Positions 59,600 to 64,000 of a stretch of 64,000 nt of DNA are shown here, piece by piece. Source of the DNA: Nocardia sp. NBC_00403. GTDB taxonomy: Bacteria; Actinomycetota; Actinomycetes; Mycobacteriales; Mycobacteriaceae. The stretch's first letter is position 1. Each line of letters starts with the position of its first letter. The notes beneath the pieces were generated by a model that made no database searches, had not been told where the DNA came from, and worked only from the letters and a program-made list of their open reading frames with translations. The stretch covers positions 7,936,001 through 8,000,000 of the forward strand of contig NZ_CP107939.1 in the NCBI RefSeq assembly GCF_036046055.1, given 5' to 3'. Both the position numbers and the translations under genes were made by a program.

Positions 59600-60169
59600 T
59601 TGGATATCAGCAAGAAGTCGCAGACACCGTTGTATCGGACTGCGACGCGGGAGGACCTTGCCGACATCGCCGCGTTGGAGAAGGAACAGCTCGGGGACCT
59701 GGCTTGCTCCTATGTGATCCTGCGTCAATTGTTCGATCTGCACGGATCGCACTGGGTGGTGGCCGAAATCGGTGGGCACGTCTGCGGATACGCGATCGTC
59801 GGCATCAACGCGGCGCAGCTGGCGTGGGTGCTCGGGCTGGCCGTGGCCGAGGCCCACCAGCGTCGTGGACTCGGCACCGCGCTGCTCGAGCGGGCCGTCT
59901 CGGGTTGCCGCGCCGCCCGGGTCGAGCGGATCTTCATCACCGTGCGACCGACCAATCAGGGCGCCGCCTCGTTGTACAAGAACGCGGGATTCCAGTGGGT
60001 CGGACACGATCGGCGGTATTTCGGCGACGACGAGCCGCGCGACGTGCTGATGCACCTGATCCAACGCAGTCCCCTCGGCCCACCGATCGCCGGGCCGAAC
60101 GACAAGCGATGGCTCAAGCCGTCGCCGGAGCCAACCAATAGCCGAATTCCATTGCTATGGTGGAAATAA
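59600..60169 (+). CDS. GNAT-family N-acetyltransferase
   Basis: A 189-residue GNAT enzyme. YRTATREDLADIAALEKEQL opens the fold, AWVLGLAVAEAHQRRGLGTA carries the acetyl-CoA-binding V/A site with QRRGLG, and RVERIFITVRPTNQGAASLY then YKNAGFQWVGHDRRYF completes it. It resembles RimI-like acetyltransferases; the acceptor is unknown. TTG 59600 is chosen because GAGGTGA lies 5 nt upstream; the frame is open to 59507, inside the terminator. Confidence 0.82.
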   Translation: MDISKKSQTPLYRTATREDLADIAALEKEQLGDLACSYVILRQLFDLHGSHWVVAEIGGHVCGYAIVGINAAQLAWVLGLAVAEAHQRRGLGTALLERAVSGCRAARVERIFITVRPTNQGAASLYKNAGFQWVGHDRRYFGDDEPRDVLMHLIQRSPLGPPIAGPNDKRWLKPSPEPTNSRIPLLWWK

Positions 60170-60205
60170 CGTCTTGCCGACGTGTCACTCCCGGGGGAGA
60201 TTTAC

Positions 60206-61066
60206 ATGACCGATCAACCGGATCTGTCATCCACTTTCGTCGTGTCGATGACAACCCGGATCCATCGGCACGCCGCTGTGTACGCAGAAGAGATCATCGA
60301 CCACCTCGCCGGTCTCGACGGCCGACACCGGCAGCCGCGTGAGGAGCGGCTGCTGGACTCCTTCAACACGCATGTCGAAACCGTCGTCGCCCGTTACGAA
60401 CCACCCGGTATCCGGCGGCGCGGCGACAGCCTGGTATTCGCGGATCTCTATGCTACCACCCGCGAACCACATACCGACGACGACGAACATGGCACCATTC
60501 CGCTCGAATTCCTGGCCGCCCTGCTGGCCGCCGAAGTCGAGTTCCGCGGCCCGCTGCGGCTCAGCGGGACCCAGAGCACCATGCTCGCCGAGGTATACGA
60601 ACGCCTCGGCGACTGCCTGCGCTCGGCCGGATTACCCGGCCACGCGGCACTCGCGTTCCGGCGCGCAGGCAGTCTGCATCGCCAGAACGAGGACGACGAC
60701 GATGCCGACCGCTGTGGCCTCGCCCAGGCTCGCGCACGGTTCGAGGCCCTCCCACCCAGCTGGCGCCGGACCGGCGGCCATATCTCGGACCTGTTGTGCG
60801 GCTACGGATATCAGCCATTCCGGCTGCTGGCCTGGATGGCGCTGCTGCTGGTCGGGTTCACACTCATGATCAGCTTCATCACCGGCGTGGAGGTTCCTGC
60901 GACGTTCTATCTGTGCCTGATGAACTTCCTCAATCCGGTCGGCGTCGGCGACACCACAGACATCGGCGGTGTCGGCCAGACCCTGTTGGTGATCGAAGCG
61001 TACGTCGGCACGGTCTCGACCTCGGTGTTCTTCGCGCTGCTCGTCCGCAGGTGGTTCCGATTGTGA
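60206..61066 (+). CDS. Membrane protein with potassium-channel-like C-terminal pore
   Basis: A 286-residue protein. The first 210 residues are soluble and helical (AAVYAEEIIDHLAGLDG, AEVYERLGDCLRSAGLPGHA) and may be a sensor or TPR-like part. Then come a hydrophobic segment (LLAWMALLLVGFTLMISFIT), a re-entrant-like loop with NFLNPVGVGDTTD, and a last helix (LLVIEAYVGTVSTSVFFALL). This is the two-helix channel layout, with GVGD in place of the canonical GYGD filter. GGGGGAG precedes ATG 60206. It ends 5 bp from the convergent SCO2521-family gene. Function unknown; channel activity is inferred. Confidence 0.7.
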   Translation: MTDQPDLSSTFVVSMTTRIHRHAAVYAEEIIDHLAGLDGRHRQPREERLLDSFNTHVETVVARYEPPGIRRRGDSLVFADLYATTREPHTDDDEHGTIPLEFLAALLAAEVEFRGPLRLSGTQSTMLAEVYERLGDCLRSAGLPGHAALAFRRAGSLHRQNEDDDDADRCGLAQARARFEALPPSWRRTGGHISDLLCGYGYQPFRLLAWMALLLVGFTLMISFITGVEVPATFYLCLMNFLNPVGVGDTTDIGGVGQTLLVIEAYVGTVSTSVFFALLVRRWFRL

Positions 61067-61071
61067 AACGG

Positions 61072-62058
61072 CTACCAATTCGTCGTGGACACCTTGGCTT
61101 CACGCAGTGCGGCCAGCGTCGCCACCGAAAGACGGTTACGCAACTGACCTACCCGACTGTCCCAATCACGAGTGAACCCCGGCCTGAGCTCCAACTGCTG
61201 CCACAGTCCGAGGAACGGCGGCGGAGTGTGCGCACCTGGCATCCACAGATGCGCGAGGTGTTCGAGAACCGCGGCGAGGACGCGCGCGGAATCCGGGCTC
61301 GCCGTGTCGTACCGATCCGCCTCCTCGACCGCGTTGACGACCGCGGTCAGCAGCCAGTCGTGCATCGCGAGGTCGGCGCAGAACTGTTGGGCCACAGCCA
61401 GATCCTCGATATCCCGCACGGTGATCTGCACGGTGCGGACCTCGTCGTCCTCCAGCCTGAACTCGACGTGCGGAACCTCCACGGCACCGAGCCGGGCAGT
61501 CCACTGCAACCGAGTCGAACCGGTCAGCAGCGGCGACCGCTGATCCAGTCCGCGATCCAGCCGCACCCTGGCCAGCAGCCGCTCGCTGATCGAACCGAGG
61601 TCCAGGGTGTCCGGCCCCATCGGCCGGTGCAGGAAACCGTGCACGAGGTCTATCCCGATGTCGCTTCTGATCTTGTTGATCACCTCGGTCACCCCGCCCC
61701 TGCGCAGATAGTGCTCCCACTTCTCGCGCTGCGGCCTGGCGGCACGCACGACTGCCGTGCGCACCGAACTCTGCAGCACCCGACCGCCGACCACCACGGC
61801 ATCGGTGGCCACCGTACCCCTGGCCTCCGCCCTGGCGCCGGTGCCTGTCGCCAGCAGACAATCCACGCCGACCAGCATGGTGGGCGAGATCGCCATCGGA
61901 ATGGGCCGCTCCCACGACCGCACCGGACGACCTGGCTTCAACGCCAGCAGATTACGAACCTCGACACGGCTCAATGCCCCCGAGGCCGGCACCAAGCAGG
62001 TGCGGACTTCTCCGAGGACGATGAGCGTGCGCTCCGGAAGGACCATCGCATCGGCCAT
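61072..62058 (-). CDS. SCO2521-family protein
   Basis: A 328-residue protein of unknown function. It opens LPERTLIVLGEVRTCLVPAS and contains LAISPTMLVGVDC-like PMAISPTMLVGVDCLLATG, GGVTEVINKIRSDIGIDLVH, and ADLAMHDWLLTAVVNAVEEA. No signal, membrane segment or catalytic motif is recognised. It is named by similarity to the conserved actinobacterial family called after S. coelicolor SCO2521. ATG 62058 starts 1 nt after the SCO2522-family stop, so the two are translationally coupled. I cannot assign a biochemical role. Confidence 0.72.
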   Translation of the reverse strand: MADAMVLPERTLIVLGEVRTCLVPASGALSRVEVRNLLALKPGRPVRSWERPIPMAISPTMLVGVDCLLATGTGARAEARGTVATDAVVVGGRVLQSSVRTAVVRAARPQREKWEHYLRRGGVTEVINKIRSDIGIDLVHGFLHRPMGPDTLDLGSISERLLARVRLDRGLDQRSPLLTGSTRLQWTARLGAVEVPHVEFRLEDDEVRTVQITVRDIEDLAVAQQFCADLAMHDWLLTAVVNAVEEADRYDTASPDSARVLAAVLEHLAHLWMPGAHTPPPFLGLWQQLELRPGFTRDWDSRVGQLRNRLSVATLAALREAKVSTTNW

Positions 62059-62059
62059 C

Positions 62060-63115
62060 TCAGGCGATCGTCGCCCGGCCGGCCCAGGTTTCTGGGACGA
62101 ACAGGTGCTCGAGTCGATGGCTGACCGGGCGCGGCACCGTGACACCGTCTTTGACACCGCTGCGCACAGCGAGGTCGATCACCTCGTCGTCGATCTCGAG
62201 GTGTCCGAGGATGACCTCGACCGCGTGCTCGATGCTGACGTAGGTGCGCGGCAGAATCGACACCGCCCGATAGGCGGCGAACGGGTGCGCGTCGGGATTC
62301 AATTGCACGACGGCGGGCATATCACGCCACGCCTTCGGCCAGGTGAATTCGCCGGAGTCGTCGGAAACGGGCCACAGTTGTGGTTGCGCCACCGGGGCGC
62401 CTTGGTATCGCAGGAGATCCAAGCGCATCAACTGCCACACCGACGCCAGGAAGGGGCAGGCCCACACCCGGTCCGCGTCCGCGCGAACCCGCGACTTCTT
62501 GGTCGGCACCGCCCACAGCTGGGTGTCGAGAAAGATCGAATGCTCACGGCGACCGTACTCCTCGGCGGGCCGGTATTCACCGCTGCGCATCGCCTGCACC
62601 GTGTCGTAGTCGGAGGATCGGCGACCGTTACACAGCCAGCCCGACACGTCGGTAGGCGGCCTGCGCCCTGTCGTCCGCAGAATCGGCTCCGGCACGATCC
62701 AGGAGGCGACCATCTCGGCAAGCGGAATGTGCGCACCGGTCGCGACGCCGTCCACGTACACCGGGGACTCGAAGCAACCTTCCTCACGGGCCAGATAGTC
62801 GATCGTCATACCACATTCATCGGCGGCTTTGAGCAGCTTTCCGATGATCTGTCCCGGGTCGGTGTCCGGGCCGAAGTAGTCATCGATCAGAAAGCACGTA
62901 CTCACCTTGGCCTTCGGACCGAATTCGTCCTTCGCATAACCGATATTCGAGTCGAGGCGCCTTTTGACCTCTTTGAACTGCGCCCTGATCCGATCCTCGC
63001 CATTGGTGAGGTCGTTCATATAGAAATGCCCGACCTCGATAGACAGATGCGAAAGCGGCGCCGACGTGATCGTCGCGCTTGCCGTCGCCTCGCTGTAGCC
63101 CGCAGCGGTCTCCAC
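62060..63115 (-). CDS. SCO2522-family protein
   Basis: A 351-residue soluble protein of unknown function. Conserved-looking segments are LSHLSIEVGHFYMNDLTNGE, CFLIDDYFGPDTDPGQIIGK, GCFESPVYVDG, MVASWIVPEPILRTTGR and QLWAVPTKKSRVRADADRVW. Acidic residues in FLIDDYF and the regular alpha/beta pattern hint at an enzyme, but no known motif is complete. GGAAGGA precedes the GTG by 12 nt. It lies 33 bp after the SCO2523-family gene, in one operon with it. Confidence 0.72.
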   Translation of the reverse strand: METAAGYSEATASATITSAPLSHLSIEVGHFYMNDLTNGEDRIRAQFKEVKRRLDSNIGYAKDEFGPKAKVSTCFLIDDYFGPDTDPGQIIGKLLKAADECGMTIDYLAREEGCFESPVYVDGVATGAHIPLAEMVASWIVPEPILRTTGRRPPTDVSGWLCNGRRSSDYDTVQAMRSGEYRPAEEYGRREHSIFLDTQLWAVPTKKSRVRADADRVWACPFLASVWQLMRLDLLRYQGAPVAQPQLWPVSDDSGEFTWPKAWRDMPAVVQLNPDAHPFAAYRAVSILPRTYVSIEHAVEVILGHLEIDDEVIDLAVRSGVKDGVTVPRPVSHRLEHLFVPETWAGRATIA

Positions 63116-63148
63116 TGGCGATCGAAATCCTTCCTGGAAGGGGGTGGG

Positions 63149-64000
63149 TCAGAACGTTTCCCACACAGCGTCATCGGTGAGCTGACGGGCAAGTTCACCG
63201 AAAGCAGTGGTGGTCTCGACATTGGCGATCTTCGCGTCGACATCGGCGTCGAGGATCACTTGTTCGCGCCACTGCAGCATCGGCTCCATCGGTGTTTCCC
63301 CGAGCAGCGTGCTCTGGCCCAGTTTCTTGGTGGACGCCAGCTTTTTGAGCGCCGCATTCTGTTTCAGCAGCCATCGGGCCTGCGCGGATTCGTCGTTGCC
63401 CGGTTGCGTGAACGGGTTGGGGACCGCCGTTCGAATGAACCGAATCGACTCGCGCAGCTTCTTCTCGTCGTGCCCGTACCCGACGCCGGACTCCAGCAGG
63501 CCACTCGGACCGTGCACCAGCGCGCTGGCCGCCATGATGTGCTGTCGCGTCCAGCGGTGGAAAATCAACCAGCGGATGGTCTCTTCGGCGAGCTGCGGAT
63601 GTGCTGTCGCCTCGAGCACGAGCTGTGCCGCCGCCGAACGCCCCGCGCTGAGATCCACGATGACGACATGGAATTCACCCATCACCTTCGAAAGCAACTT
63701 CACGCATTGCTCGACCATGGCGGTTCCGGTGGTCGGGAATTCCGCGCCGCCCTCATCGCCTGGGAATAATACGAGCTTTCCGGAACGCATCGGCATGCGA
63801 CACAGTTCGACACGATCGGATTTGGCGCGCACATCGATTCTGGTCGTCGTCTCTTTCTCGTTCAGCAGATAGGAGTGCAGCCCGGTGCCGTCGGAAATGC
63901 CACGTTCCACGGCTCCGATCTCGAACAGCGCTCCCGCGGTCGGCGAGCCGAAATCGAAATCCAGATACGCGACGTTCTTGCCGCTCATACACAGCCGAAA
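63149..64000 (-). CDS. SCO2523-family variant P-loop (ParA/MinD-like) protein, 5-prime end beyond right edge
   Basis: About 283 codons are visible; the frame is open through 64000, so the ATG at 63988 is internal and the true start is outside. The visible part begins with VAYLDFDFGSPTAGALFEIG, the segment after the P-loop in ParA/MinD-type ATPases. Later comes a Walker-B-like VVIVDLSAGRSAAAQLV, then FHRWTRQHIMAASALVHGPS. The nucleotide loop itself would lie past the edge. The family is known as a variant P-loop protein whose partners are SCO2521, SCO2522, SCO2524 and a methyltransferase (SCO2525). The role is unknown. Confidence 0.75.
   Translation of the reverse strand, partial: FRLCMSGKNVAYLDFDFGSPTAGALFEIGAVERGISDGTGLHSYLLNEKETTTRIDVRAKSDRVELCRMPMRSGKLVLFPGDEGGAEFPTTGTAMVEQCVKLLSKVMGEFHVVIVDLSAGRSAAAQLVLEATAHPQLAEETIRWLIFHRWTRQHIMAASALVHGPSGLLESGVGYGHDEKKLRESIRFIRTAVPNPFTQPGNDESAQARWLLKQNAALKKLASTKKLGQSTLLGETPMEPMLQWREQVILDADVDAKIANVETTTAFGELARQLTDDAVWETF

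Follow-up and report, generated by a model that had tools for sequence, protein, structure and literature searches.

The gene set described here lies at the right end of a 64,000-nucleotide stretch of the genome of Nocardia sp. NBC_00403 (contig NZ_CP107939.1, positions 7,936,001 to 8,000,000, part of an 8.7 Mb single-contig genome; henceforth the window), and one of its closest known counterparts is the operon sco2521-sco2526 of Streptomyces coelicolor. The names of the corresponding NCBIfam families imply the same gene order, from SCO2524 to SCO2521, as in the window; in contrast to an operon of the S. coelicolor type, the Nocardia genome yields no match to SCO2525. Passages in two published studies list this operon among the genes seemingly under the sole control of HupS and report that SCO2525 is necessary for normal growth of S. 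coelicolor (PMC11472566), or ascribe to SCO2525 a morphogenetic role, citing Gehring 2004 (PMC6344877); PMC3017869 is a further literature source. Literature searches by gene name retrieved no function for SCO2521 to SCO2524, searches by family name retrieved no paper, and those NCBIfam family descriptions that were seen mention neither a channel-like partner nor exchange as a unit.

Two other groups of systems share features with the locus. In their sections on VMAP ternary and EACC1-caspase systems, Kaur et al. (2020; PMC7159879) report that these nucleoside triphosphate-dependent conflict systems of multicellular bacteria have a MinD/ParA-like domain that is inactive. Like the Nocardia cassette, they are actinobacterial, contain such an inactive component and combine a constant core with alternative partners; in one clade the cassette adjoins a caspase-EccC gene. 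Unlike them, the core of the cassette has no vWA-MoxR, STAND or caspase match, and those sections contain no counterpart of SCO2521, SCO2522 or SCO2524. The second group comprises the FxSxx-COOH systems, whose TPR proteins carry a KGGVGR domain (NF047398) that is, like SCO2523, MinD/ParA-like with KGGxGR[ST] replacing KGGxGK[ST]; in both, a D-x-D-x-x-S-P sequence follows the motif. Unlike FxSxx systems, the SCO2523 cassette contains no recognised FxSxx, radical SAM or TPR gene.

The core of the cassette is a minus-strand operon that reads, from outside the window inwards, SCO2524, SCO2523, SCO2522 and SCO2521, and its genes pass the cut-offs of all four NCBIfam equivalog families (Table 1). 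An earlier note on this DNA had recognised the last three of these genes and had predicted SCO2524 just past the right edge, where it was found; its expectation that SCO2525 would also lie beside the module failed, as the next gene encodes TIGR02569, followed by moeZ, and the genome yielded no match to the SCO2525 model (NF040568; 14 control genomes likewise gave none). When 196 genomes of the class were searched with the family models, SCO2524, SCO2522 and SCO2521 each matched in 21, as did SCO2523 above its cut-off (47 genomes at E 0.001, the other 26 being weak partial matches). Comparison of the lists revealed that all four families occur in the identical 21 genomes, which span 5.3-9.7 Mb and include Nocardia and a Frankia. 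In each of the 21 the genes are clustered in the order 2524-2523-2522-2521, with another gene interposed in one. The co-occurrence postulated in the earlier note is therefore confirmed for SCO2521 to SCO2524, and its extension to a fifth family holds only in part: SCO2525 exceeds its cut-off in 12 of the 196 genomes, all 12 among the 21 with a core, and scores below cut-off in 4 more that lack the core. The methyltransferase SCO2525 is an optional component of the cassette, because the window genome has no match and only these 12 of the 21 core genomes carry it. Within genera the distribution of the core is patchy: of 78 Nocardia genomes, 55 have it above cut-off and 23 do not, and in genus g20, which we take to be Streptomyces from genome size and gene content, 13 of 81 have it and 68 do not. 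The core is thus accessory and not universal in its genera.

An alignment of SCO2524 was also searched against a species-level genome collection, which gave 416 relatives among 441 stretches. The best 80 stretches were kept and represent 78 loci, mostly Nocardia; together with the 21 loci from whole genomes they form the 99 core loci compared below, again mostly from Nocardia and with one Frankia record counted twice. SCO2523 and SCO2522 are present at all 99 loci, SCO2521 at 98, and the SCO2525 family at 15.

A membrane protein is closely tied to this core. The 99 loci contain either a channel-like protein, c30 (74 loci), or a different one, c5 (16 loci), never both, and nine contain neither. 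In Nocardia, c30 matches occur in 51 of the 78 genomes (50 at or near full length and one fragment); these are 51 of the 55 core-bearing genomes and none of the 23 core-free ones, and in each of them c30 lies within ~5 kb of a core copy, as judged by eye from the coordinates. In three of the four core-bearing genomes without c30, which are closely related to one another, SCO2521 is immediately followed by a small gene and one with a caspase domain; in the fourth (G256) the core is cut by a contig end, and a genome-wide search for c30 was negative. In genus g20, c5 and the core are each found in 13 of 81 genomes, 12 of which are shared, so that c5 occurs in 12 of 13 core-bearing versus 1 of 68 core-free genomes. 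The two exceptions look like decay: G287 has c5 with an adjoining, possibly chance, SCO2521 trace of 19 bits, and G300 (locus L131) has a core without c5, an insertion between SCO2523 and SCO2522, and the P-loop KGGACRS. The inserted segment of L131 (4762-7108) contains a gene resembling flavin adenine dinucleotide-dependent oxidoreductases, as read from its open reading frame (ORF).

The N-terminal ~200 residues of c30 are followed by two transmembrane (TM) segments and, with them, an LNPxGxGD stretch resembling a pore loop. Hydropathy analysis of the family indicated two TM segments in 56 of 75 members, one in 18 and three in one. In potassium-channel-like proteins, two TM segments enclose a pore loop with a T-x-G-[YF]-G-D filter. 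Among the weak Pfam matches of the c30 family, Ion_trans_2 came up most often (in 3 of 17 members, with E 0.047 at best); the window's c30 lacks this match, and its best hit is Bestrophin-like (E 0.0075, below cut-off). The c5 protein has two TM segments and a DUF6879-like C-terminus (33 bits in one member; 21.6 bits, below cut-off, in another). The GNAT N-acetyltransferase gene c2, whose product is RimI-like below cut-off, stands beside the core at 81 of the 99 loci. The positions of c2 and c30 vary, being usually convergent behind SCO2521 and in five loci upstream and co-directional, and in L027 c5 is placed between SCO2523 and SCO2522. The GNAT and c30 genes at 59600-61066 had been missed by the earlier note, whose reading of the module as a conserved multi-gene system stands with these additions.

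Cassettes with different membrane partners form two subtypes. Three core proteins from 37 loci were concatenated for a midpoint-rooted tree, in which the c5-type and c30-type loci were fully separated and four partnerless loci fell on both sides. Furthermore, the cassette is replaced in place between relatives as one unit, because three related chromosome pairs differ sharply over this block. Among 38 locus pairs with flanks more than 88% identical, of which 35 were measured and 3 were unmeasurable, core identity falls by 21-27 points in three: L032/L034, L027/L040 and L053/L061 (Nocardia salmonicida and N. alba). In all three (flanks >91%), the stretch of low identity within the ~20 kb compared takes in the core together with the GNAT and membrane genes; L027/L040 also differ farther out. 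The loci L032 and L034, located on two chromosomes of one genus, have flanking proteins that are mostly 91-100% identical and core proteins that share only 40-55%. Their partners differ as well (c5 plus methyltransferase versus c30), and identity is 62% for the GNAT proteins and 73% for the protein immediately to the right of the block. Without recourse to annotation, these three sharp cases mark the limits of the cassette; a scenario in which old duplicates were lost differentially would be less simple than exchange. In all 316 pairs measured, core similarity trails that of the alignable flanks (median difference 6.4 points) and does so by more than 12 points in 59 pairs, which may mean either that exchange becomes more frequent as distance grows or that the core changes at a higher rate than the sequence around it.

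Table 1. Genes of the cassette at the window locus, in window coordinates.
Feature	Position	Strand	Basis
GNAT N-acetyltransferase (c2)	59600..60169	+	Pfam Acetyltransf_1, 67.3 bits
Channel-like membrane protein (c30)	60206..61066	+	Alignment, hydropathy, weak Pfam matches
SCO2521 family protein (NF040565), 328 aa	61072..62058	-	NCBIfam, 346.7 bits (cut-off 150)
SCO2522 family protein (NF040566), 351 aa	62060..63115	-	NCBIfam, 375 bits (cut-off 200)
SCO2523 family variant P-loop protein (NF040564)	63149..64066, cut by window edge at 64000	-	447.9 bits at full length (cut-off 200)
SCO2524 (NF040567)	64071-65927 (window-equivalent), past right edge	-	800.8 bits (cut-off 300)

The closest named relatives of the proteins of the window locus are Nocardia proteins. 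The gaps at the junctions measure 1 nt between SCO2522 and SCO2521 and 33 nt between SCO2523 and SCO2522; c30 is convergent with SCO2521, and c2 has a probable TTG start preceded by GAGG, its ORF reaching out to 59507. The same genome contains a second, orphan SCO2523 gene (L006 8308-9219 on the plus strand, genome positions 1573307-1574215) that is 61% identical, has D38 changed to T, and is preceded by what is left of the C-terminal part of SCO2524 (20.9 bits) and followed by a P450 gene; it is a decayed second copy. A short SCO2521-like remnant at genome positions 4854164-4854283 (minus strand; 25.8 bits, profile positions 259-301) is perhaps another lost copy. Irregular loci were seen elsewhere too. 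L087, L101 and L102 each hold two full core sets, in tandem in the first two and inverted in L102, which also has a second GNAT gene. In a Nocardia wallacei record (L085), no SCO2521 was found at the core locus even though the contig runs on. In N. rhizosphaerihabitans (L045), extra DNA at ~11.8-13.1 kb separates SCO2523 and SCO2522 and contains a weak GNAT-like match (51 bits).

ParA/MinD ATPases have a deviant Walker A motif, KGGxGK[ST]. In SCO2523, a free-standing protein of 305 amino acids (aa) whose part inside the window alone reaches 388.1 bits against its NCBIfam family, the motif reads KGG[TA]GRS in all 18 aligned members, with K9 and R14 invariant, and the canonical form was rejected on the basis of this K-to-R replacement. 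The protein also matches MinD/Mrp-type profiles, and its description in the earlier note as a ParA/MinD-like variant P-loop protein is supported. Assignment to the KGGVGR-motif variant AAA ATPases (NF047398) was rejected as well: the score of 43.7 bits (E 3.7e-11) misses the 90-bit cut-off, though the K-to-R change with the first lysine kept fits this family.

One of the two proteins that had been thought to have no recognised chemistry is SCO2522. Its predicted model matches class I aminoacyl-tRNA synthetase (aaRS) folds (CysRS, MetRS, ArgRS) and MshC at 6-11% identity, and modelling thus suggests a class I aaRS-like fold. The class I signature motifs HIGH and KMSKS, searched as H[ILVMA]G[HN] and K[MFLI]S[KSA][SR], were found in none of 21 (alignment A5) and none of 115 (alignment A7) SCO2522 sequences. 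All 21 sequences of A5 and 114 of the 115 of A7 have an ExGH motif within their first 60 residues, and no link to aaRSs was found at the sequence level. Compared with class I aaRSs, SCO2522 also appears to lack the length needed for a tRNA-binding domain of its own. Residues 144-190 (GWLCNGxRS) are highly conserved, yet are among the least confidently modelled parts, as if they folded only with a partner.

At five of the 99 loci (L077, L093, L099, L103 and L105), a gene for a caspase-domain protein lies behind SCO2521, or in L099 behind c30, and three further regions (L133-L135) from close relatives have it too, two of them apparently the same records as L105 and L103. The L105 protein (1448 aa) matches 'caspase, EACC1-associated type' (NF047832) with 140.8 bits at a cut-off of 140, has a strong EccC match, and combines NACHT-like and EccC/FtsK domains. 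A small gene precedes the caspase gene in four of the five loci, and judging by this position its product may be EACC1-like. A chance neighbourhood in this one clade is possible because the EACC1-caspase pair is common in actinobacteria according to the relevant section of Kaur et al. (2020; PMC7159879). No caspase-like match was found at the window locus, which rules out an EACC1-caspase two-gene conflict system in the window cassette.

What the data establish is the composition and linkage of the cassette, its two subtypes, its exchange as one unit, and its loss and decay among soil actinobacteria. Taken together, the evidence leaves about an even chance that the cassette is an accessory system for conflict or stress, switched by a nucleotide and coupled to the membrane. 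This reading is favoured by the shared distribution and clustering of the four families, their patchy occurrence, the tie to a membrane partner, the two subtypes, the exchange of the block, the resemblance of SCO2523 to the KGGVGR domain and the caspase neighbour in one clade. Such a chromosomal accessory cassette would consist of a constant four-protein core and its own membrane partner. SCO2523 would act as a non-canonical nucleotide switch of the MinD/ParA type, SCO2522 may bind a nucleotide or an aminoacyl-type ligand by means of its putative aaRS-like fold, and SCO2524 and SCO2521 could serve as scaffold or sensor partners. The switch would determine which state the membrane partner adopts, this partner being c30 in one lineage and c5 in the other. 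The GNAT protein, often together with the NNMT-like methyltransferase, would either modify the ligand or keep the system in check, and the resulting response would probably arrest growth or perturb the membrane. Of the signalling, localisation or conflict role proposed in the earlier note, signalling or conflict fits better than metabolism as a proposed function.

Several observations weigh against a conflict or stress system. The filter-like LNPxGxGD stretch of c30 is variable instead of conserved, and the GNAT gene was not found at 18 of the 99 core loci. The window locus is surrounded by housekeeping genes (TIGR02569, moeZ), searches of the PLSDB plasmids with SCO2524 and of IMG/VR with SCO2523 and SCO2524 gave no match, and in 32 of the 35 measured closest pairs the core is conserved like its flanks (differences of +0.9 to -4.2 points). 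A PADLOC scan of 8 proteins matched only SCO2523, to the candidate family PDC-M28B with 22.8 and 16.9 bits; a known PADLOC anti-phage system was rejected, as nothing beyond these two weak scores was found. The caspase protein is confined to one clade, and the small protein preceding it has no NCBIfam match, weak Pfam matches only, and a TM segment that is doubtful by hydropathy. Finally, the reported requirement for SCO2525 in normal growth or development of S. coelicolor could equally indicate a developmental role.

Among the rival explanations, a small-molecule pathway is possible, if rather unlikely. SCO2522 would then be an aaRS-derived ligase comparable to MshC of mycothiol synthesis, GNAT and methyltransferase would cap an amine, and the membrane protein would export or sense the product in development or antibiotic regulation. 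The model matches to class I aaRSs and MshC are consistent with this, as are the affiliation of SCO2525 with the NNMT/PNMT/TEMT small-molecule methyltransferases (45.8 bits), the RimI-like GNAT and the fact that biosynthetic clusters are also exchanged whole. However, the missing HIGH and KMSKS motifs and sequence-level aaRS link argue against such a ligase, no carrier protein, export pump or regulator was recognised among the genes of the block, and the MinD/ParA-like protein would have no clear job.

A further rival is a cell-polarity or septation complex, in which SCO2523 would place the core at hyphal tips or septa in the manner of MinD/ParA and the membrane protein would be the anchor. 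Its MinD/Mrp-type profile matches, the occurrence of the core in the 5.3-9.7 Mb genomes and the passage describing SCO2525 as morphogenetic (PMC6344877) agree with this idea, which we nevertheless consider improbable: growth and septation do not need the core, because 68 of 81 presumed Streptomyces and 23 of 78 Nocardia genomes lack it above cut-off, the P-loop of SCO2523 has the K-to-R change, and no MinE, ParB or DNA-binding partner was recognised in the block. Least probable, and in our view very much so, is a conserved accessory operon that serves ordinary metabolism or stress physiology and has GNAT and membrane protein as merely syntenic neighbours. The housekeeping surroundings at the window locus and the passage placing the operon among HupS-controlled genes (PMC11472566) would suit it, but the membrane gene follows the presence and absence of the core, this link is kept across positions and orientations, and the boundaries of exchange take in both the GNAT and the membrane-protein neighbours.

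A more specific scheme is also conceivable, though it must be regarded as speculative and unlikely. SCO2522 would make or handle an aminoacyl-nucleotide-type signal under the control of SCO2523, this signal would open or activate c30 or c5, and GNAT and the NNMT-like methyltransferase would cap its amine and thereby switch it off. If this were true, the cassette would couple a signal to a membrane effector, would have an aaRS fold as its basis and would be swapped between species, and the phenotype of the SCO2525 mutant would reflect the loss of an off-switch.

The cassette bears on a puzzle, namely that SCO2525 is reported to be needed for normal growth of S. coelicolor, yet most of its genus appears to lack the core cassette. 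As 68 of 81 genomes of the presumed Streptomyces genus have no core above cut-off, the growth defect caused by SCO2525 loss would be easiest to explain if the remaining cassette turned harmful without it. More generally, four orphan families named by NCBI can now be treated as one testable system: an exchangeable block with a tied membrane partner, a putatively aaRS-like protein and a candidate non-canonical MinD-like switch.

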